Position numbers and translations under genes: made by a program | Notes under the pieces: model-generated | Databases searched by the model: none | What the model was told of the DNA's origin: nothing | What the model saw: the letters and a program-made list of their open reading frames with translations, nothing else | In this document: piece by piece, positions 9,078-58,790 of the stretch | Layout: every line of letters begins with the position of its first letter | Numbering within the stretch: the stretch's first letter is position 1 | Source of the DNA: Linnemannia hyalina | Taxonomy: Eukaryota > Mortierellomycota > Mortierellomycetes > Mortierellales > Mortierellaceae | DNA: 64,000 nt | NCBI GenBank assembly: GCA_019671135.1 | Contig: JAHRHY010000007.1 | Coordinates: 248,001-312,000, forward strand | Direction of reading: 5' to 3'

Positions 9078-12000
9078 CTAGTCGTATGGTTGCAAGTAGC
9101 GAGGGCGCTTGTGGTGAAGTAGGTGCCCCTGGATGATGTTGCACATGGTATGACCTGCCATAACATCTCGATGCACCTTGGCGCCACAAGTGGGGCAATA
9201 CAGCTGACGGATGTCGACTTGGCCAACAAACTCATGGCAGACTGGACACCTCTTGGACGTATAGTATTCGTTTACGCCGACTACGATATAACCCAACGAT
9301 CGGGCCTAAATAAAGCAATACCAGAATACGATAGCATTAATCGTAGATCCTTGCAAAGTCATTGTGAAGGTGGGTTCAAGAAAAGCTCGACTGCTTACCA
9401 ACTGCACAAAGTACTCGGAAAATGCTGTATGGAGGGACGACAACCGTGAGTTCGAAGAGAACTCTCCGAGTCCTATACCGATTACGACCTTGCTCTTGCT
9501 GTCTCGTTTCGCGCCTGGGGTACCTCCCACCAGCTCCAAAAGGCGTTTTCCGATCAGTTTGAACTCTTGATCCCTTGCTCGCTTTGCATCCCACTGATGC
9601 TTCTTGAGAGTAACATTGTTGTAAAATGTCTCGAGATCAGTCTCCACAGCCCTGGACTGGTTGACATATTCGGCGATCGACGCTTCTGCTCCACGGAGCG
9701 ACGGCAAGTTGGTCTCCTTGTGAGCAATTGCCTCCAAGCCCTCGACTGCACGTCCCTTCCTCTGTTCGAGCCATCGTCTGTGCTTAGACGTTGGCTGGTA
9801 GACGGCCTTCTGACTGGCTACCAGGTTGTGGAACTGAGCTGGCAAGGGTACATCGATCTCGGTGATGGCTCCTTGCTCCTCTCCATCAGTTGGAGTGGCC
9901 GACGCGGACGAGGGTAAGAGGGCACTGGCGCCAACGACAAATGCCTGCCCCAAGTCAATCGCGAGGATCTTGATTTCCTTCGGGTCACAATCCCAGATCC
10001 GCTTGACGTCCTCCGTTGTCTTGACCACGCCACGGATCTCCCTGAGGTAGTGGTCGGTGCCTCCAAGCGTCGATATTAGTGGGTCTGGTAGCTTGTCCTC
10101 ACCCAATCGCTGGTACTTGACACAATTGAGTTCATTCAGCTTGAAGGCGAGCAACTGGATCCGATACCCGTCCGTCTTGACCGATCCTCGGAGAGCATAG
10201 CCCTTACTCGAATACGAAGCCTTGGGATTAAAATCTCTGTCCCGAGTATTGGAGATGTGAGCATTCATATCACCAATCGACATACGGTGCGCGGATCGTG
10301 ACCAGTCCTTCCGTTTCCTCCTCTCATCCTCTGTAAATCCTCCAATGTCGGTCAAAAGCCTGTTGATCAGCTCTCCTGGGTCGAGGTTTTTGAGCCAACC
10401 AACAACATCATCCTGAGGAATACGGCTAGGGTCGGTGAAAGATGGGAGAGTTGGATGGGCATAACTCTGTAGCTGTTTCCGTAGGGTCACGTCTGCCCAG
10501 AAGATCCTGACCAGCTCATCCTCTGAAAGATTGACGAACTTTCTTCCACGGGGTGACATTGGTGATAATCGCCAGCTTCTTCCGATCGTCCTGTTCAGAA
10601 TGATGAAGTTCTCCGTTGGGGTCTTGTCTGTATTGACATGATCTGGAGCGCTCTCGGGCAAGAGTCCCTTCTTCTTCTGCTGCTGAATCTGTAGCGGAAA
10701 AGAACAGATAAAAAAAATGTCAGGCGCGTTTCTTGTAAACAGGAGTTTGAACCATTCCAATTGTTATTACCTTTTTGCAAAGATCGAAGGAGCCATTCTT
10801 GAAATGATTTGTGTACTCAGTCGCTAGTTGTATCGCTGTGGACGGGAGAAAGATGGAGGGGTTGTTGTAAGGCTCTGCAGGCAGTGCATGTAAATAAGAA
10901 ATGGAGAGGAGAATGGTTAGAGAGTTGGTCTTACAATAGGTCACATTGCTGCCACAATTACAAGAAGCAAACCTACCACTGCCAGTTTTCGGTGGCAAAT
11001 AGTCTTTGGCTTTATGTAAGAACAAGCCCACAGCCGCAGCTGCACCCGCATTCTTTGTTTTCTGAGGAGCGCTAGCCTTGTAGATGGCAACCAGAAGCGA
11101 TAAGAAAAAAGATTCTGGAGAGTTCTTGTTGTCGACGCTTGCCTCAGGGTTGTTCTTGTTGTCAGATGGCTTCTCTTCTGGGTTCGGGGTGATGCCGTTT
11201 TTGGCCTCCTCGATCTCCTGGGCCGAGAAGTAAGGGGTCAAGTAGCTGAGAATGGTTCTGTCGTCCTCGTCAAGGTGGTCGACAGAGAGGTTTTCGAGGT
11301 ATTGACCGACTATCTGTTGACAGCAAAGTTTCGTTCTCGAAGTAAGTTTAGAGATGTCCGAGAGACATGTGGTGATCGCATGCTGGAGCTTTTGCTGTAA
11401 ATCCGCGTCGTAAGGAATCTCCTTCTTTAGTGCTCGAGACGTATTCGCCTTCAGGGTTCCAATGTCCAAGGTTCGAAGAGGGTGTTCTCGTTGCATGGCT
11501 TTGACGAGCTGAATCTTGGTCATCTTATCTGCTGCAGGTTGAATTTTTTTAGGGGTAGACTTTTGTTTCTTTTTCGGTGGGGGGCTGGTGGCGCCGACGT
11601 TGGTGCTGGGTCCTGCCTCGGTACTGGTGCCGGTACTGGTGGTGCTGTAGGGGTTTTTTGCTGACTCGGCATTTTCTTTTGGAGGCTTCCAGAAGTACTG
11701 CTTGAATATATCGGGCTTCTCGTGTGAGATGAGACGTGATCTCGTCTTGACCGCGTAGCGCTCCCGATACTCGTAAGGCCGTCCCGAGGTGTGAGGGTGA
11801 GGTAGCTGACTTGGAGGACGGTCGACAGTGGAGTATCGGATGAAATTTGTAGATCGCTCTCCTTCTTGATCACCAGTGGCCGATCTAAGAATGATGGGTA
11901 TCCACCAACTGAGCTGTTAAAAAAGAGCCTATTTTTGCCATGGAGACATCCAGGTTTGTTCATTATCATTTCGGCCTATACCTTGATGTTTTTCGGCTGG

Positions 12001-12751
12001 TTTTGAGGCGTAAGCGGATGTCTGCCAGCCATTGGGTCATCTCCTGTAGCTCGTTAATGGGATTCTGAATGTGGGGTAGGGTCAGAGGCGTGAATTGTTG
12101 GAGAGTGAATATCTGAAGAGCCGGGTCAAAGATTCTCTCAGTAGGGTGCTTGCTAGACACGGTAGTGTTCTCCAAGTAGGCATCAACAAGCTCTTGGACA
12201 CTCGCATTTTTTAACGTGTCTAAACAAAAAAAGCCAAAAAAAAGTTAAGGAAATGTGAGTCGAAAATGAACAAGGAACTAAAACAAAAGAGTATATATAT
12301 ATTTCGCCTTACCTTCTGCCTCCAGAGTCCAAATGACCTTGAAGTTTCCTTTGACTCCCATCTTGTGGACACCCTTGCCGTAATCGTTCTGGGTGACAAT
12401 TCCAAGGGTGGTCAGTCCTGTTCTTGAAAGCTCAAGCTGGCGTAACAGGTCAGAGACATGGTAGACAAGATATCGGTCACGACCGAAAGGTCTCCAGATG
12501 GTGTTAATGTTGCTGTAAACTAGCGCGTCACTGTCACGGGTTATGACGATGTCGTCCTGTTTGCAAGTGGATCCGATGCAGGTGTCGGCTTCTGAGCGGC
12601 AACCACAGACGATCCAGCCACTTGCGCGAAGATGTTGGACAAGAGCTTGTCGAAGCTCATGGGTAATATAGAAGGAATCGACAATCGCTTTGTTGAGGGT
12701 CTTGAACTGTTGCTTCCTTAATTTTCCGTGGTTGTTGAAAGTCTCCTCCAT
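9078..12751 (-). CDS. Fanzor-type RuvC nuclease with N-terminal half XPG/FEN1-like PIN domain (locus 1, 5'-truncated)
   Basis: Predicted RNA-guided DNA nuclease of the eukaryotic TnpB (Fanzor) family. Exons: 12751..12313, 12219..11982, 11908..10977, 10874..10771, 10688..9399, 9305..9078; all phases close (1076 aa). Exon 1 encodes the second half of an XPG/FEN1-like PIN domain: SEADTCIG, then VITRDSDALVYS, then VTQNDYGKG, the usual metal-site blocks. A middle region with a poly-charged linker (PPPKKKQKSTPKK) leads to the Fanzor part: RuvC-I AIDLGQ, RuvC-II IGIGLGEFSSN, zinc ribbon CPVC...CPTC, RuvC-III HRDVMAGHTMCNI. The whole RuvC triad D/E/D is present. The first PIN half (seen in locus 2) is missing; the gene instead abuts a TKL kinase fragment at about 12763. 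A basic tail continues in frame beyond the TAG for 56 codons, so the stop may be recent. Activity unknown. Confidence 0.85.
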
Positions 12752-12765
12752 TATGGTCAAAGTTT

Positions 12766-13574
12766 CGTGCAGTTGGTTGCCATCTCCCACATGACCATGC
12801 CCAGCGCACACATGTCCGACTTGGAAGAGTACTTGGGCTTCTCCAAAAAGAGTTCGGGCGCCATCCATCTCACAGTTCCCACACCCCCGGCTGATGAATT
12901 GGACATAGACGCACCAGTGCTCATGGACTACCGGACCTGTGCAAGCCCAAAGTCGGCTAGCTTGACCTCCATGTGTCGTGTCAAGAGGACGTTGGCGCTT
13001 TTGAGGTCGCGGTGAAGGACGCCTTCGTGATGAATGTACTCGAGCCCGCATGCTAGAGTTTCTCAAGTCCTATGTGCTGCGAATAATTTTGCATGGACCT
13101 CGCACGCATGCGAATAATTTTTGAGAAACTCTACCGCACGCTATCTCGTGTGTGAGTCGCATCTTGGTCGGCCAGTCGAGCAACAGTTCTTGTCCGCCAC
13201 CGCTTTTCCTGTTGATTGCACTGGCGAGACTACCGTTTTCGGCAAGGTCCATGAGGAGGTAGATCTGACCGTCTTCCTCGTGTGTTCTGAGGAACTGGAT
13301 GATGTCGCGGTGGCGAGGCCTCTGGAGGAGGGAAATCTCTTTCTGGATGGCCTTCTAGTAAAGATCTGACTGGCTATAGAAGAATTTCTTGGCGGCGACT
13401 AGCTGGACACCCCAGCGAGTCTTATAGACAGCACCGGAGGCTCCCGTGCCAACAAGGCTTTCGCATGCAAAGGGGAATTGCTAAGGTCAAACAACAAGAG
13501 AGCGAATTAGGGAGAGTGTCACCTTTTCCTGCGAATGTGAGAAGATGAGTTCATCCAGTTTAGTTCCTTACCAT
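12766..13574 (-). pseudogene. Truncated TKL-type protein kinase, broken by stops and a MITE
   Basis: Start ATG at 13574 sits directly on a GTAAGG donor; intron 13571..13481; exon 2 from 13480 reads FACESLVGTGASGAVYKTRW (glycine-rich loop), VAAKKFF (ATP-binding Lys), [12 protein letters not shown] (catalytic loop), LADFGLAQV and GTVRWMAPELF. An in-frame TAG interrupts the N lobe (just after SQSDLY) and another lies after the DFG segment (QVR-stop). An 80-bp insertion splits the HEIACGLEY region. The frame ends at MWEMATNC, where sequence of the Fanzor/PIN gene begins. TKL-like kinases with this catalytic domain are numerous in Mortierella-type fungi. Not functional as it stands. Confidence 0.8.
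13054..13133. mobile_element. 80-bp hAT-like MITE
   Basis: Perfect 13-bp terminal inverted repeats (TAGAGTTTCTCAA ... TTGAGAAACTCTA) are flanked by an 8-bp near-perfect target duplication, CCGCATGC (13046-13053) and CCGCACGC (13134-13141). The 8-bp duplication and TAGAG ends fit the hAT superfamily. Removing it restores the kinase reading frame (GAG ATA GCG TGC GGG CTC GAG), which confirms the boundaries. Confidence 0.85.
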
Positions 13575-50486: not shown

Positions 50487-50614
50487 GTGATATCAAATAT
50501 CACCTAGAGGAAGTACAGGAAAAATGGGTTGAACGTGGTCTGCAACAACTACGAAAAAAACAAGACAAGTACTTTTTATGCATGTCAACTATCCCTTAAT
50601 CCGTAGAAGGGGAT
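50487..50614 (-). ncRNA. Candidate guide-RNA scaffold 3' of Fanzor locus 2
   Basis: Just beyond the stop codon, read on the minus strand, are two stems: ATCCCCTT...AAGGGAT (50614-50591, one bulge) and GTGATAT-TTG-ATATCAC (50503-50487). The position corresponds to that of the paired stems after locus 1. No sequence homology between the two was established by eye, so this is only a candidate. Confidence 0.2.
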
Positions 50615-50644
50615 AATGTAAACTATAGTTTCTATCTATAGAGG

Positions 50645-53600
50645 TTAGGTTTGTTTGGGGGGTCTTGCAAGGGGCTCGGGCCGTCCTAGAGACTTGAGGT
50701 ACTGTTCTCCGATCAAAGCGATGTTGTGCGCCCCCACTCCATCTCGGTGAATCCACCGAGTGCACTCAACACAGGCGCATGTCCTCATCGACGGCTTGGC
50801 GAGGCGGGTGGCTCGGTTCTCAACCACACATGTTGGACACATGGTGGAAGTAAGATACTCGTCGACCAGGGCAGCCTTGTATCCGAGCGCAGCACTCTAT
50901 CGGTGCAGGAATAATAAAATTGTGTTCCATAGATTTGCCATGGCATCATGAGTGCACACAATCAAGACAAAAAGATACAACCATGCCTTTCACAATTTTT
51001 TTTTGCCTTTCGTACCTGCTGTAAAAGACGTCTGAGAAACGTGGTGTGCACCGAAGAGAGATTAAAGCCAGACCGGAAGGTTCCATTCCCCAGGGCAAAA
51101 AAAACTTTTCTTTGGTGGACGGGTACGCCCTCACATGCCTCATCCACCATCCGCAAAACGCCAGCGACGGCCAGATCCAACTCCGACATTTTCGCCATTC
51201 TGTGCTCGTGAACCGCTACCTTCCATTCTCTTGACGCGTAAATCCCGTGGATCAGCGGTTCCTGCTCGTAGTACTTCTTGTGAGCTGCCGTCAAAGCATC
51301 CAACGAGGTGTCGTAGTTTGTTGAGGGGAGAGAATTCTCTAGGTCGTGGACAGACGGGAGAGTGGTGAGCTTGTCCAGGTCGGTAATCCGTGTCCAAAGG
51401 GATGAGTCGACAACATCGCCTGGACCAGCTGTTGGGTGTCGCCTTTTCCAATGCTGTTCCCAATCTCGGAAGGCCAGAGTAGGCTGGTATAGGGAGGCCC
51501 TCTTGATCAGCAGATTGATGACTTTTCCACCGGGAAGTGTCAAACAAAATGCACCACTCACTACCTCTCCGGGATCAATACCGACGACAATGACTGAATC
51601 CAGGTCGTCGCCAAACGCGTCGATAAGATGCTGCCGCGTTGGATAAAGCTTCTCGATCCTAGAAAGAAACTCACTGTAATTTGGGGATTGGCGGGGTTTT
51701 GTAAGGTCATACGCGAGAATCTGCAGCTGGTGGCCATCCGTCCTGATATAGTTGTTGAGGGCGTAGCGGTAAGAACGCGGCTGCTGACGTGGGGTGGGAA
51801 GAGGCGGTGGTCGATGACGATGGCGTTGATGATGGCAACGGTGGTGTCGGGGCCGTGAGGGAGGCGTTGTGCCGTTCTCGGAAAAAATTGACCTTATTCG
51901 TCAAATACCGTGCGAGCTCTAACTGTCCGTAGATGTGTGGATGGGCCTCCTCACGCTCAGCCATGGTTGTTGTCCTCTTCCCGTATGTCGTCTGCTGCTT
52001 ATTCCTGGCTTCCTTGATGACATCTCGGTCACCGATGAATAGTTCTTTGATCACCTCTCCGTACGAAGAACGCTGTTTTGCCGCTGCCCAGTTGTGAGTG
52101 TAGCGGGTGTCCTCCCATACGTTGTCCAACTGAACTGCCTTCTCTCCCCAGAGAAGCGCAACCAATGCTTCCTCGTTGATGTCGATGAAGGAATCGCTCG
52201 TTTTGGCCTGGGTGCAGAACCGGGGCCGCTTGGATGATGGTAAGAGGAGGAAATATCGCCAGCAGAGTTGAATATGACCCGGCTTGAAAATGATCTTCTT
52301 GGATCGCTTGAGGGCGTCGTCGTCGTCCACACCCTCGTTAACGTCAGCAGCCCCGGCATCACCACCAGCGTCGGTGCCATCTTGATCTATTTCAGGAAGA
52401 CCATCGCAATCAATGGACAGCTTGGAGAGCTGGCATTGCATAAACAAAAGGAGTGTTAAAATATGTTTTACACCCCATTGAAAATATTTGACAAACTGAA
52501 TGGATATGGATAGATGGTACCTTTGTTCTAAGAGTCTCCGGTATTCTCCTGTAATGCAGTTTCTGATCTAGGCAGATCTTGGGTGCAAGTTCCGCGATGA
52601 TATTACTCAAAGCCAGATCCGTTGAGTTGAGGGCTTTGAACCCTGGGCACAGCGTCTTCTTGAACTCGTTAAACGTCGAGATTGCTTCAGCGACAGCATC
52701 CTTGCTCTTGTCCGACGCGGGTGGACGTCCTTGGGGGACAATGGAATTCCTCAAGACGAAGGACAGTAGGTTTTGGACAAACCTTTCCGCCCAATCGGAA
52801 TCCAGGATCTTCTCTAGGAAGCTCTCGTCCGGTCCATCCTCTGCCTGGTTCAGTCCAGTCTCGATCAGCGGCTGTAGAATGCGCATCTCGATAAGCTTGT
52901 ACACAATGTGTTTGGCGCTATTGACGGTAGAGACTGCCGAACTCACGTGTTGGGTTAGCTGCGCAACCTCTGCTTTCGACAGATTGGTTGATCTTCCTAG
53001 GCAGCCTTGCAGGGATCCAGTCGTGAGCGTGACCGTTGCGAAAACAGACTGGAACGCTCTCTTCAAGGCCTTGGGTCCAGCTATTCCTTTAGGTTCGCCA
53101 AGGAGTTTTTTCTTTTTCTTCTTGGCAGTGGGGGCAGGCACTTGGTCGATACGGGGGGATTGCTCCTTGGGCTTTGAAGGACGGGGGGTCGACGGCTTCA
53201 ATCCTGAAAGTTCCACGACATCAACAGGGCTGGCCTTTTCTAGGAAAACAGTGTCCGGCACATAGCGATCTTGCACGTCTGTGCGCGAGCGGAATCTAGA
53301 TGCGATTTTGCAATGAGTTGTGTTAAGGTGGAAATATATGTATATAGCTGGACAAGGCGGAGAAAAATACCAGGAGAAAAGACATACCTGGAACGACGCC
53401 ACTTCTGTCGTCGCCGCTGGAGGGCACGTGAACCATGTCGGCGTTGTTTTTTAATCTTTTGCTTGTGCGATGGTGGATGTTCGGCTGGGCCATGCGTCTG
53501 CCTGATGGAAGGTGATCCCGCTGATGTAGCTTGCGGATATGGTGCTGATCCTGCCTTGGGTGCCGTTGGGAGTGGTGGTGGCGTTGCCTCTGCGTCTGTC

Positions 53601-53698
53601 GCCGCCCCCTGAGAAGCTGGATCTACTAGCAGCCCAGGCGGCAACGATCCCGTCCGACTCGCGGAAAAGCGACGCCAATCATTGTAGGCTTTGTTGAA
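50645..53698 (-). CDS. Fanzor-type RuvC nuclease, C-terminal portion of locus 2
   Basis: Continues in the same frame as the PIN-domain exon after a single TAA. Segments: 53698..53388, 53295..52521, 52429..51893, 51783..51016, 50896..50645. It begins FNKAYNDWRRFSAS, passes a Pro/Lys-rich linker (KKKKKKLLGEP) and a long helical region (GRSTNLSKAEVAQLTQHV), then RuvC-I VGIDPGEVVSG, RuvC-II FFALGNGTFRSG, zinc ribbon CPTC...CACVEC, and RuvC-III RWIHRDGVGAHNIALIG. DxG and HRD aspartates are present, but the RuvC-II glutamate seen in locus 1 (GEF) is Thr here (GTF); Fanzors are known to use a relocated glutamate, so loss of activity is not proven. No in-frame ATG occurs until deep inside, which argues that this is part of the upstream gene. 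The 51892..51784 gap is an intron with an unusual GTCAAT donor or a frameshift. Confidence 0.8.
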
Positions 53699-55264
53699 TT
53701 ATGTTTCCTTAATTATGGCCATCAGTCGTGTGTGTGTATCGGCCGCCGGGCTGATCCTGTTGTTGTCCAGAGTGGTTTCCTCGCAAAGCACGAATGTCTT
53801 GAGAGCATGGCCGAATTCTGTCACATCTACACGCAGCTGTCGATCGGCCGTTTCGATCCTCCTCAGATCCTTGTCGTGTGCCTTCACCGTTGGGTTAGGA
53901 TTGCATCGCAGTCGACGACGTGCGCTTTGGGTGGCTGAGTCCTTGATTGTACGGGCCTTTTGGTGTATTATGTCAAGGTAGCGCCTAACATAGATCCGAA
54001 CCACCTCCACTCGATCTTGGCCAACCGTTCCATCAAGACCTGTCATCTTGAACTGACGGATCGTATCGACATTGGATGTCAAGCCATAGGAAAAAACTCC
54101 GTTGGTGTAGTCGTTGTTCGATACCAGAGCGGCAAGCGTTAGATGTACAGGGGTCGGAAGGCCATGCTCGTTCAGAAGCTCATCTTTGTGGAAAGTAGTC
54201 CAAGTGTTCTTGACTGGCATGGTGACGGACATGATTGACTCGAATGCCATGAGATCGGAGTCCTTGGTGATAACTCGGATATCTCCGGGTACGGCAGCGT
54301 TGTTGACTGTCCGCGCAATGCACGTGTCGCTTTGGTTGAGACATTGGCAAATCGTCCATCCACTCTGACGCAGTACTTCCGAAACGGCGCGCAATGCCTC
54401 CGGTGGTGCTCGGTACGACGCCTTCAGGCGTTTGTATAGCTGTCTTTTGTTGTGCAGCTTGCCCTCCGTGTAATCTCGTTCAAGTGTTTCCAACTGCTTG
54501 GACAGCGCCTGATCTCGTTTGCCGTGCGCCCATTCCTTCTCCATTGATCGTAGACCATCCATATGGAGCATTGTAATGTCCTTAGACAATCGTGAGGAGA
54601 GAATCTTCTCAATTGCGGCTCCGACAGATCGAAAATCCTATTGGAAACAGCGAATTATTATTTTGGTCACAGCAATTTAGCTTTTCTCCAGATAGCATGA
54701 ATCATTTAACTTTTTTCCAGATCAGTACAATCCATTTAGCTTTCTCCAGATGGTATGATTTATGGTACTTAAAATGACCTTTTCCTGGGCGCAGATTGTG
54801 GTCAGAGCGCCGCTCTCGTCGAACCGAATCTGGGATGGCTGTGTTGCCAGCAATCGCTGCATGTCTTCAACGAGAGTCGACGACCCGGAGCTGATTTGGA
54901 GGGGTCGGAGGCGTTTGTTAGAGGAAGCAGTGTCGGCGGTGTCCGCATCGTCGACGTCGGCTGCTCGTTTTGGGCTGGATGAAGCCTGCCGTGTAGATGT
55001 TGTTGTGTGAGTAGACATGCCCGCGCCATCGACGTCGGCTGCTCGCTCTGGGCCGGATGAAGCCTGCTGTGTCGATGTTGTTGTGTGAGTAGATAATTGA
55101 CATCGGGCGGACTTTGCAGCGAACTGCACTGTTTTATGGAAACTCAGCGAGTTCACCAACGCAAAAAACATCGACGCAAAATCTACTTCACATCTCTTCT
55201 TGGTTAGATCTTCCTCCACTCCGTCTGTCGCCTTGATCCACCCGGTGAGATTTGTGATGCCCAT
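53699..55264 (-). CDS. XPG/FEN1-like PIN nuclease domain, N-terminal portion of Fanzor locus 2
   Basis: Exons 55264..54779 and 54637..53699 (TAA). The start MGITNLTGWIK and EVDFASMFFAL match the XPG N-terminal block; a Thr/Ala-rich insert with two near-identical units (THTTTSTQQASSGPERAADV / THTTTSTRQASSSPKRAADV) interrupts it. Then ITMLHMDGLRSMEKEWAHGK (second Asp block), SGWTICQCLNQSDTCIART (XPG-I, where the usual EAD is QSD), VITKDSDLMAFES, and LVSNNDYTNGV (the helix-hairpin region). Five acidic positions typical of flap nucleases are present, one glutamate is missing. The frame runs past the TAA without break into the Fanzor segment. The intron 1 donor is AAG/GTCATT, non-typical; intron 1 holds three tandem 29-bp repeats (54675-54761). 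Confidence 0.78.
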
Positions 55265-55870
55265 TGCTGTAATTCTAAGTAATTCACAATTGAAGGTTGA
55301 TGGTTAGCGCGAGTCTGATTTCATAGATTCTCTCAATAGCACGGGTCGCAATCACTTTCAACATCGGCCTTACATAGGTCTGTTGAAGCTCAATTGAGAA
55401 GGGGGGCAGTTTAGGAGAAGGGGGAGAAGGGGGCAGTTTAAATGAAAGGGACACGAGGCGATGCAGAACGGTGAAAAAGAAGCTAGTGGTCTTTATTCAC
55501 TCAGCCTCAGCCGCTCACTCAGTCACCGTGACCATCAGAGCTATGAGCTAGGGGTGAGCGAATTAAGGGGTAGGATGGTTCTTTCGCACCAATCCCATGC
55601 ATTTCAGCCTCAGTGGACAGACACTGAGATGCAACGCTATCGGCGCGGGCACAGGACCCTTTCTAAAACTCAGGGCGCGTATGATACTCCTAAATCATTC
55701 TTGGTGCAAAGAAGACCTTGCAGAGAGAGCAGATTCGCTGGGTGGGTTGAGGATATGCTTGTGTTATGCCTTCTCGTTTATTTTATCTGCACAGGATGCA
55801 GCCAGTCATGAGTAGTTCAGTAATTCATCGTTTGGTCCCTTGAATTTTTTCGAGACATAAGGGGATACTT
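55265..55870. other. Gene-free stretch upstream of Fanzor locus 2
   Basis: Contains a GA/GGGGCAG-rich short repeat (55399-55442, GAGAAGGGGGCAGTTT units). A plus-strand frame of 116 codons at 55461 has no recognised feature. Confidence 0.35.
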
Positions 55871-55879
55871 AGGTAGGGG

Positions 55880-56969
55880 TGTCGCGACATTTGGCGGACA
55901 CTATCAGATCCTTAGCCAGGAACTATCGGAACTCCCTTTGATGCATGGAAGAGCCGAAGAGTTTGTTGATAAGGTACGCATTGATGATTGTTGTATCCAG
56001 TAATCAGAAGAAGATCGGAGCCCATGCGCGATAAGTCCTGAGCTGAGTCGAATAGTAGCTGCATAACTGGTCGGCAATGTCGACTCCGTTCATGTGGTGG
56101 TTGTTGTCATCGATGATTTTGGGATGGGAAGTAACGCCATGGAACGTCCTTTATGAGCAGCCCGCACTGACTTTGCGCTGGCGCTTGTCTCTCGAGGGCG
56201 TCTGCGATCTTGGACAACGGATCAGTCGTTGTCGCCGAGGCTGAGGGCATGGACGGTGAAGAGTATGGAGACAGGTCTATTGTCCATCCAGAACACGGTA
56301 AGAACCTGAAGTGGGTCTGGCGATTGTCGCGGTTAGCTTTTATAGCCTAGCAGAGGGCAAGAGTGGTAACTCTCTTCGTTAAATAAAAGAAAAGGAAGCG
56401 AAGCACCTATCTATCACAGGCTCTACTTTTGAGAACCAATGTTGCTCAGGCTCGTTGGGGTTGGAGACATGAAAAAAACGCTTCAGTTGTTCGAAGCGGA
56501 CGAGGGACATGAAGGTAGTGATGTTGTGTTGAGGACATTCAGGGAAGGTTGACCAATACTCAGAGACAGAGTTCTGCCTGAACACGCCCATGTAGACAAT
56601 GATGCCGAGGAATGTGCGCAGTTCGTCAGGTGTGGTCTTTACCCATTGGCGCGATCCCTCTCCTGTGCCGGCTCCTTTTGATGCTGCATATGCGTTAGTG
56701 TTGTCTGCCAAATCCGTCAATACTGGGTCGGAGAAGATTTTCTTTGTCGGTGGAGCTGAAGCATCTATCACCCCTTCATCTCCTGCCTTCTCCTCCTCCT
56801 CGTCCCCAGAGCTATCTGTACCAGGCGTTGGTCGAGTACGACAACGGACCGAAAACAACAACTCCTCCTCCTCCTCCTGTGCCTCGTCAACCTCCTCCGC
56901 AGATGCTACTACGGTGCCTTGAGAGTCAGAAACGTCAAAGGAACCGAGGAACTCGAGACTGGAGTCCAT
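55880..56969 (-). pseudogene. piggyBac-type transposase relic
   Basis: ATG at 56969 opens MDSSLEFLGSF, an acidic head, then the piggyBac block DELRTFLGIIVYMGVF, EYWSTFPECPQHNI, FEQLKRFFHVSNP and VEPVIDRCF, ending in a stop at 56379. Homology resumes at VFWMDNRPVS (about 56300) and HHMNGVDIADQL with SYYSTQLRTY and IINAYLINKLFGSS near 55950-56090, with several in-frame stops. The segment with the first catalytic Asp is missing. No terminal inverted repeats were recognised. Inactive. Confidence 0.85.
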
Positions 56970-58790
56970 GAGTGAGTAGGGTGAAGTCGATGTGTGAGAA
57001 AAAAAAGGTAATGGGTTGCGGGATGATGATGAGAAAAAAAGAGCTGAATTCGAGAGTGATGAATGTAATGTGACGAAGACGACAAGGACACTCCCACGAC
57101 GTAGTCTTCTAACCCGTTTTATTGGAAACCTGGATAAATCGAAAAAAATGTGGTGCAAATTTGCACCACAAACAAACTAGGGGATAAGGGCCAGCAGCTG
57201 AAGGGGAGGGAAAAAAAGAGCAAGAGAGGGGCATTCCCTTGGAAAATCGATTCATCTGTCTGCTTTATTACATCTCCCATGATACAGCCCTTTTCTCGCT
57301 CAGGTACAAAGGGCGGGAAAAGATAACGCCATGGTCGTGAATGAAATCAGGCTTGGAAAATTGGTTGGACTCACCTAACCCGTAATGTGTTCTTTCTTCT
57401 ATCAGATGGGGCACCGATGACGGTAGACTTCCCTCCCTCCCTCTCACGTCTGCTTCACACGCACAGGAACCCATCCATCACTCTTTAGGTGCGTCGAAAA
57501 AAAGCTTACTCCATTGCTTTGCGCCCTGTGGGTCACGCTCCCTTCACAGTGCAATATAAGAATTGGTGAATCTCATCCCGCCTCTTCCTTCAGCTCCTTC
57601 CTCACCTCCATTCTATCCTTGATCAAAGCTCACACCTTCCATGAAAATAAAGACTGCACATATCCTAGAACACACCTTACTACCAATGATGACACAAACA
57701 CAAGACGAAATGAAATATGAAGACACCTTATCCGTTGCTGCTGAAGACATTTGAAAAGAAAATAAAAACATCGGACGAAGAAAAGTGGCAAGCTAGGAAA
57801 GAGGGCGGACAGCAGAGAAGGAAATGGATCGCGCCCCCCCCCCCCCTCTTTTTAATATCTCAAACGTGGGTATGGACAAGTGCAAACAAACAATCCCATC
57901 GCCTATATTCCAATTCAGCCATAGCCGCCACTTGAACACAACTGAATCATATCCAATTATCGCGCTGTTGAAAGTCCCTTCAAATGCACCATTGGCTTCC
58001 ATTTTTGTTTTTTTATTTTTTATTCTTTGGATATTGGTATACGGAACTGTACGAATATGACGATCAACTACCCTAATTTGAGGTCAAAGCTGAGAAACAA
58101 AGTAGTCCGCATCGATGGGTCTTGCTCGTGTGGTCGAATCCACCTTCCTCTTCGTGTTAGAGATGTATGCATGAAAAAAAAAGTTTGCAAGCCTGTCATT
58201 TGAGAGCCATATCCGTTGCTGATGTGCACTCCTAATGAAAAAAAAAGATGCGGTACTCTCCAATCGATAAATGGAAAGACGTTCAATAGTCTGGTGGAAG
58301 AAAAACGGCAACCGAGAAAAAGAAAACAAAGGGTCAAGCATCCCATGAGGCCATGGCTATCACGGTCATTTTTTTTCCACAACTCAAACGAGGTATGGAA
58401 AACACCCCAATGAATTGAAAATATTGCGTGTATCTCAATCTCAATCTCAGGCCGCCACTTGATCGATGACCGATCAACGAAGACAACACATGTCAGTATC
58501 ACGCAACTGTTAGCCTCCATTATATTCTTTGGTAAGCATGAGTACGGCTACGAAGAGCCAGGTATCTTCCTTGGAGGTTGACACCGCGAGTCATGAGAGG
58601 TGAGAGTCAATCAACAGCGCATTACATCGACCTTCTTCTTCATCGAAGACATCTTAATACATCGGTAATAAAAGGATCTATCCACTTTAATCCAGCAAAA
58701 TTATATTAAAACGAGTATAGTGCGGTGCTATTATATGTGGCTCCGAAAGCAAGTCTAGCATAGAAGTGCCTTATCGCTGGTGTAATTAAA
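56970..58790. other. Gene-free stretch
   Basis: No supportable gene. A palindrome TGGTGCAAATTTGCACCA sits at 57151-57168, and a C run at 57833-57846. Segments at 57880-57970 and 58380-58520 share a theme (AATTCA..AT.GCCGCCACTTGA) suggesting an old duplication. Confidence 0.4.

Follow-up and report, generated by a model that had tools for sequence, protein, structure and literature searches.

The 64,000-nucleotide stretch of Linnemannia hyalina DNA considered here (contig JAHRHY010000007.1, positions 248,001 to 312,000; C48:248001-312000 of the 51.5 Mb genome searched, and hereafter the window) carries, on its minus strand, a gene that joins a nuclease domain of the XPG/FEN1/EXO1 type to a Fanzor, the eukaryotic form of TnpB. 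Judged from its copies, this fusion gene is the cargo of a multicopy transposable element, termed family A, of which the window holds a decayed member. The fusion, its exon structure, selection on the junction between the two domains, their association across the genome, the ends of the element and a conserved 3′ region are all established from the nucleotide sequence. With modest confidence, the element is interpreted as a decayed member of a DNA transposon family in which the principal gene would encode, on one large protein, the XPG/FEN1/EXO1-type domain, a conserved basic linker and a Fanzor RuvC domain guided by RNA, with the first of these processing the target. Genome searches scored the best candidates, and all totals of loci given below are lower bounds.

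A sequence-only reading of the window had proposed that the XPG and Fanzor domains lie on one protein, encoded by one reading frame. The two domains do occur at the place proposed, on the minus strand and in the order XPG then Fanzor, within one five-exon gene that begins with an ATG at 55264 and ends at 50645, and whose intact reading is 1397 residues long. The XPG/FEN1/EXO1-type domain comes first along the gene and the Fanzor RuvC and zinc ribbon follow. Exon 1 (54773..55264) opens with MGITNLTGW and contains the strand of the first active-site Asp of the XPG/PIN domain (CEVDFAS) together with a low-complexity loop; a homologous exon 1 is present in a second family, B. The core of the XPG/FEN1/EXO1-type domain (MDG, QSD, TKDSD and NNDY) and the beginning of a conserved basic linker are found in exon 2 (53388..54637), and exon 3 (52521..53295) holds the linker (FRSRTDVQDRYVP...) and the region after it. 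Exon 4 (51016..52429) encodes the N-terminal Fanzor region and RuvC-I (GIDPGEVVSG), and exon 5 (50645..50896) encodes the alternative RuvC-II Glu (DEYLTSTMC), the zinc ribbon and RuvC-III (HRDGVGAHN), with a match to PF07282 (E 2.9e-7). The end of exon 1 was placed at 54773 because GTAAGT stands at the site matching 54772 in family B and in 11 of the 12 family A copies; a donor at 54778 was rejected, as the comparison with family B places it at 54772. The notion of a single open frame fails for the window copy itself, in which a TAA within exon 2 (53701-53699), between the XPG part and the linker, creates a stop at codon 477, an 11-bp frameshift deletion shared with L009 falls in exon 4 between 51811 and 51810, and the intron-1 donor at 54772 carries a private mutation.

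The fusion is conserved, and recurs over several diverged families of this genome, which bears out the central claim that an XPG/FEN1-type domain is joined to a Fanzor. Family B comprises 11 loci and has the same five exons and four introns as family A, with an uninterrupted fusion of 1351 residues in all seven copies from which frames were taken (L021-L027); of the other four loci, L028 is truncated at its 5′ end and 97.75% identical over the remainder. Comparison of families A and B over eight regions shows saturation of silent sites in most of them, and the ratio of nonsynonymous to synonymous substitution (dN/dS) is at most 0.22 in all eight. At the XPG-Fanzor junction the ratio falls below 0.09, with dS taken as at least 3. 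The junction (RRHGSRA...RFRSRTD...RYVP) straddles intron 2, and its protein is kept in frame between the two families; on this comparison the junction is under selection as protein. Families C, D and E share the same domain order at lower identity, their sequence having been read for one E locus (L020), itself decayed.

The association of the two domains extends well beyond families A and B. For three of the five match tables used, counts of pairing were built on main matches, excluding further pieces of the same loci, pieces of exon 1 or exon 3 only, and A-like fragments upstream of E genes. A RuvC/TNB match lies downstream on the same strand, within 3.3 kb, of 70 of the 80 merged XPG-like loci, and the proportion is 47 of 57 when the A and B copies are set aside. 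Counted from the other side, XPG was matched on the same strand in the 6.5 kb upstream of 63 of the 91 TNB matches, whereas the two controls, with XPG downstream and with XPG on the opposite strand, gave two each; chance adjacency was rejected on the strength of these figures. No RuvC match was found in the 6.5 kb downstream of any of the four strong XPG_I genes of host type.

Identification of the C-terminal domain as a Fanzor follows from both profiles and motifs. PF07282 scores above its cut-off in families A, B, E and F. Fanzors are distinguished by a DPG motif in RuvC-I and an alternative RuvC-II Glu six residues before the zinc ribbon, as described in the portion of PMC10711439 consulted, and both features are found here: RuvC-I reads GIDPGEVVSG in A and B and GIDPGEAN in E, and the alternative Glu is seen in DEYLTSTMC (A and B), DEFLTSSVC (E) and NEYYTSKRC (F). 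The broader Fanzor pattern D-X(125,275)-[TS][TS]XX-C4-X(5,50)-RD, taken from PMC3627910, is present in A and B with a gap of 201 residues (TSTMCPTC...CVECTRWIHRD), whereas the decayed E copy has CPTW in place of CPTC. The RuvC-I motif of family F is DLG and departs from the DPG fingerprint; since it retains the alternative Glu, this family is best described as TnpB/Fanzor-like and not as Fanzor by that fingerprint. A C-terminal profile built from the four families matched TnpB-like L79 (3.2e-5), SpuFz1 (5.5e-4) and GtFz1 (1.5e-3) in the PDB; lower-ranking matches were TnpB and Cas12f-type chains, together with a small number of other zinc proteins. No Fanzor was matched there by a profile of exon 4 from A and B.

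For the N-terminal domain, significant matches to XPG-type nucleases came only from a profile of the four families (E, B, A and F). This profile matched EXO1 (E 2.4e-7), RAD2 (1.5e-6), ERCC5 (4e-5) and FEN1 (about 1e-3), and 32 of its 33 PDB matches at E ≤1 are XPG, RAD2, EXO1 or FEN1 by name. Because four families went into this profile, the link of A and B to the XPG family is in part supplied by E and F; when only A and B were used, RAD2 came first with E 0.043. Pfam returned nothing above cut-off for the XPG part of A, B, E and the window copy of F, and the XPG part also falls below the curated cut-offs of NCBIfam. When the XPG_I model was compared with the genome, 15 places were obtained, consisting of four strong host-type genes and 11 weaker matches, five of the latter above the curated cut-off; RuvC/TNB lies downstream of nine of the 11 weaker places, and of four of the five above the Pfam cut-off. 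The likeness to XPG/RAD2, EXO1 and FEN1 is collinear: it sets in at the DG motif, takes in DSD and continues past the NDY region, and by eye it includes the N-terminal MGI and the D strand. The domain differs from these enzymes in its long exon-1 insert, in its fusion to RuvC, and in a Gln replacing the first Glu in families A, B and E, to which we return below. When compared with the active-site carboxylates of FEN1, family A presents D28, D191, D268, D290, D292 and D340.

The element that carries the gene measures 6597 bp in the window copy (50590..57186), with ends TA-TCCC...GGGA-TA, and the gene runs along its minus strand. Genome-wide comparison identified 12 copies that align over about 50589-57187 and have unrelated flanks. 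These are 99.1-99.8% identical across the main aligned block; on the transposase side, three of them (L011, L013 and L017) have a separate 0.45-kb block of 95.8-98.7% identity and approximately 177 bp extra. Read in the orientation of the gene, TTA-TCCCC marks the left end of the element and GGGA-TA the right. All 12 copies have TTA on the left, and all 11 in which two ends are visible have TA at both; L010 is without the last ~25 bp of the 3′ end. When the joined flanks of 11 copies were searched for empty sites, a match across the junction was found for the L017 site only, at seven places with 73-79% identity. A piggyBac-like (DDE_Tnp_1_7) transposase, oriented like the fusion gene, is represented upstream of it by its 5′ part (56379..57176, minus strand; PF13843 model positions 8-115 of 349, E 2.5e-20). 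This is the N-terminal part of the protein, and further decayed C-terminal pieces were seen by eye down to about 55.9 kb in the three-frame reading of the element; neither that reading nor the PF13843 match revealed the catalytic part. Since what is left is the N-terminal part and decayed C-terminal pieces, the element seems to encode no working transposase. The target duplication of piggyBac elements is TTAA, and membership of that group was rejected, as the ends here are flanked by TA.

Copies of family A are in varied states of preservation. The complete 1397-residue frame persists in two of the 12 (L015 and L018), and L011 has no internal stop and has lost its final one. L010, L012 and L013 are intact apart from the single stop at codon 477, and the single stop of L017 is at codon 337; frameshifts are found in the window copy, L009, L014, L016 and L019. 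The base change behind the codon-477 stop is common to five copies, the other seven having a sense codon. For L010, L012 and L013, either a product consisting of the XPG part alone or help in trans is possible. Shared variants are distributed among the copies in mixed patterns, as in L019, which by eye suggest exchange between copies.

A candidate guide RNA is located at the right end of the element. A 22-nt motif, CCTCTATAGATNGAAACTATAG (50623-50644 in the window), directly follows the stop codon in 12 genes of A and 11 of B, and elsewhere occurs at one place with one mismatch; the control with the pattern reversed gave none. From here to the end of the element, the A and B copies folded form a CUAUAG hairpin and a terminal stem UAUCC(C/U)/GGGAUA, and these folds, together with an alignment of six copies, place a candidate omega/reRNA scaffold at 50590..50646 on the minus strand, with the hairpin CUAUAG(N7)CUAUAG and the terminal stem UAUCCC/GGGAUA that finishes at the element end. 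In family B, the 3′ fold is more stable than those of shuffled sequences, with z-scores of -3.6 over 73 nt and -2.4 over 111 nt, the latter including more upstream sequence. Codon identity between A and B is also raised in the last 26 shared residues (17/26 vs 240/670, p 0.0025; 5 of 671 sliding windows reach the same level), a tail that was picked after the dN/dS comparison had been seen. In SpuFz1, according to the published account, the omegaRNA lies between the stop codon and the right end and extends 14-15 nt into variable sequence; the position of the candidate agrees with those of the SpuFz1 and GtFz1 RNAs. The conserved region between the stop codon and the element end is put forward as a candidate guide RNA. 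The lone one-mismatch motif, at C8:536469-536490, is not close to any of the A or B genes identified and may represent a “ghost” element, an RNA without a gene.

A working of the system can be proposed from these parts. An RNA transcribed from the right end, starting close to the stop codon and extending as far as the GGGATA terminus, would fold into the guide scaffold, and the host bases that follow it would serve as the guide. The complex of protein and RNA would then find an empty site at which the guide target lies beside TTA, the trinucleotide at the left end of all 12 copies, and the RuvC domain, whose fingerprints are intact in the full-length copies, would cut it. Finally, and this is the weakest step, the tethered XPG domain might trim the displaced strand, a flap or the edge of the R-loop, whereupon repair would copy the element back. 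Cutting of the empty site beside TTA and copying of the element by repair are proposed in line with a TnpB model that has been discussed in connection with Fanzors. TTA is plausible as a target motif because those reported for Fanzor1 are CATA, TTAA and ATN. XPG itself cleaved the 3′ flank of an R-loop in vitro, a result cited in PMC7286691. More tentatively, these loci may belong to a large and long-lived class of transposon-borne dual nucleases in which an RNA-guided RuvC and an active, structure-specific XPG-type nuclease on the same chain, the latter acting on the guide-made R-loop, would convert the guided cut into a recombinogenic break through which the element is copied; such a class would span DPG and DLG lineages and number dozens of loci in this one genome.

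Several observations weigh against this interpretation, beginning with the XPG-type domain. As single sequences, or as the profile of A and B alone, it yielded sub-threshold matches only in Pfam and the PDB, and AlphaFold models from two sets of three and four sequences gave predicted local distance difference test (pLDDT) values of 41.6 and 43.6, which do not suffice for a fold search. Furthermore, three of the four aligned families (A, B and E) have Gln in place of the first Glu of the FEN1-type Glu-x-Glu/Asp pair, which F keeps (EAD); the XPG domain is therefore not to be assumed active, and its activity may be weak or absent. The same substitution, along with the faster divergence of the XPG parts than of the RuvC part between A and B, would suit a non-catalytic module that cuts nothing and aids Fanzor binding by holding on to branched DNA or to the guide RNA. 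Such a role appears less likely; against it, the other carboxylates of the FEN1 type are kept in A and B, F retains EAD, and dN/dS of at most 0.22 speaks for constraint on the domain, which might, however, come from binding alone.

The codon-477 stop raises a different difficulty. Its presence between the domains in five of the 12 A copies suggests that stop-bearing copies have spread, perhaps with help in trans; it is the common base change that points to the spread of one version, for which help in trans would be the simplest reason. A role of the XPG domain in transposition itself, either excision or processing of the element ends, with the Fanzor part providing separate RNA-guided homing on the same chain, would also account for the spread of copies able to encode the XPG part alone, and the element shows only a fragment of a piggyBac-like transposase, such that its own protein may do more. 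Help in trans can explain the spread, however, and XPG-type nucleases are not known as transposases; this role is regarded as improbable. It is more improbable still, to the point of being dismissed, that two neighbouring genes, one XPG-like and one Fanzor, are packed in one element and only appear fused: the stop right after the XPG domain in five of 12 A copies and the ATG that begins exon 4 in family B would allow it, but no stop separates the domains in the seven B copies read or in the intact A copies, the junction protein is kept in frame over intron 2, exon 4 of A starts with Leu instead of Met, and exon 3 would be left without a gene.

For the favoured reading, that of an RNA-guided Fanzor with an XPG-type processing domain, the genome-wide counts and the candidate RNA bring qualifications of their own. 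XPG was undetected beside 28 of the 91 TNB matches, and ten of the 80 XPG loci are without RuvC; these may be fragments, diverged pairs or true singles. Ten exon-1-only places stand outside the pairing count, just one of which has RuvC within 6.5 kb, and their inclusion would make the proportion 71/90. The 3′ fold of family A is no better than those of shuffled sequences (z -0.97 over 61 nt and 0.01 over 101 nt), and the T of TTA might be the element's own base and not that of the target. The proposed working as a whole is drawn from DNA sequence.

Among known systems, the closest are the Fanzor1 proteins SpuFz1, GtFz1 and PpFz1, with which the present protein shares the DPG of RuvC-I, the alternative RuvC-II Glu, the zinc ribbon and RD. 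As with SpuFz1, the gene lies at the right end of a multicopy element and is followed by a conserved noncoding stretch from its stop codon to the end. Known Fanzors are given as 400-700 residues in the literature extracts covered, which make no mention of an N-terminal XPG domain, whereas the proteins described here have 1351-1397 residues and an XPG-type domain at the N-terminus. Multicopy fungal Fanzor elements are also represented by MCi-2 of Mucor circinelloides (Bao and Jurka 2013), which have a near-identical 6-kb 3′ portion that encodes Fanzor; two of its subfamilies have target-site duplications of 11-12 bp and one has a partial Crypton transposase. Family A differs from that description in its TA at both ends and its piggyBac-like fragment. 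The N-terminal part of a DDE_Tnp_1_7 transposase is what the element has in common with piggyBac, from which it is set apart by the unseen catalytic part and by flanks of TA in place of TTAA. No paper joining Fanzor or TnpB with XPG in this manner was found in a literature search of titles, abstracts and passages of article text, which also gave no paper on Fanzors in Mortierella, and pattern scans of viral contigs (patterns A1, A2, A4 and A6) and of prokaryote genomes (A4) gave no confirmed relative. Although Fanzor itself is known, a Fanzor with a second, XPG-type nuclease domain would accordingly appear to be a variant not described in the literature found. The natural role of Fanzors was stated as unknown in the sections consulted of a 2023 Nature paper. 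The long-standing union of a Fanzor with a nuclease of the flap or R-loop type suggests that this role includes the processing and repair of targets, an idea rendered testable by the 12 near-identical copies, the intact copies of two families, the predicted guides and the predicted TTA-flanked target. If true, this would be a naturally made two-nuclease RNA-guided enzyme, of interest for genome engineering.

The window contains a second XPG and RuvC/TNB arrangement, distant from A and assigned to family F (9081..13069, minus strand). It is made up of an XPG-like open reading frame (ORF) at 12281-13069, a linker ORF at 10723-11916, a RuvC ORF with DLG at 9309-10763 and a zinc ribbon at 9081-9305, all read as separate pieces. 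Protein-kinase-like pieces, seen by eye, precede its XPG part, and this copy looks truncated at its 5′ end. The RuvC part of family F has 109 matching pieces in the genome.

Traces of family A are also found beside members of the other families. L020:4418-7907 is a composite in which the decayed XPG-Fanzor gene of family E has an A-like fragment (73-83% identity) directly upstream of it. Elsewhere, the A-type left end TATCCCYTAGTKTG occurs 3-10 kb upstream of E or F loci at C1:298811, C12:3160187, C23:2619154 and C5:1599253, and also at C12:3092365, against one occurrence in the control; this distribution looks as if cargo genes had been swapped between shared ends. Pieces 73-76% identical to exon 1 of A sit 4.3-4.5 kb upstream of six family B genes, at C4:810069, C12:3415828, C18:99200, C1:3817453, C49:1745622 and C50:518675. 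Lastly, at C23:1074450 an XPG match falls within an open frame of 1398 residues with a TNB match 3.1 kb downstream, and this locus may be a nearly intronless member of the group.

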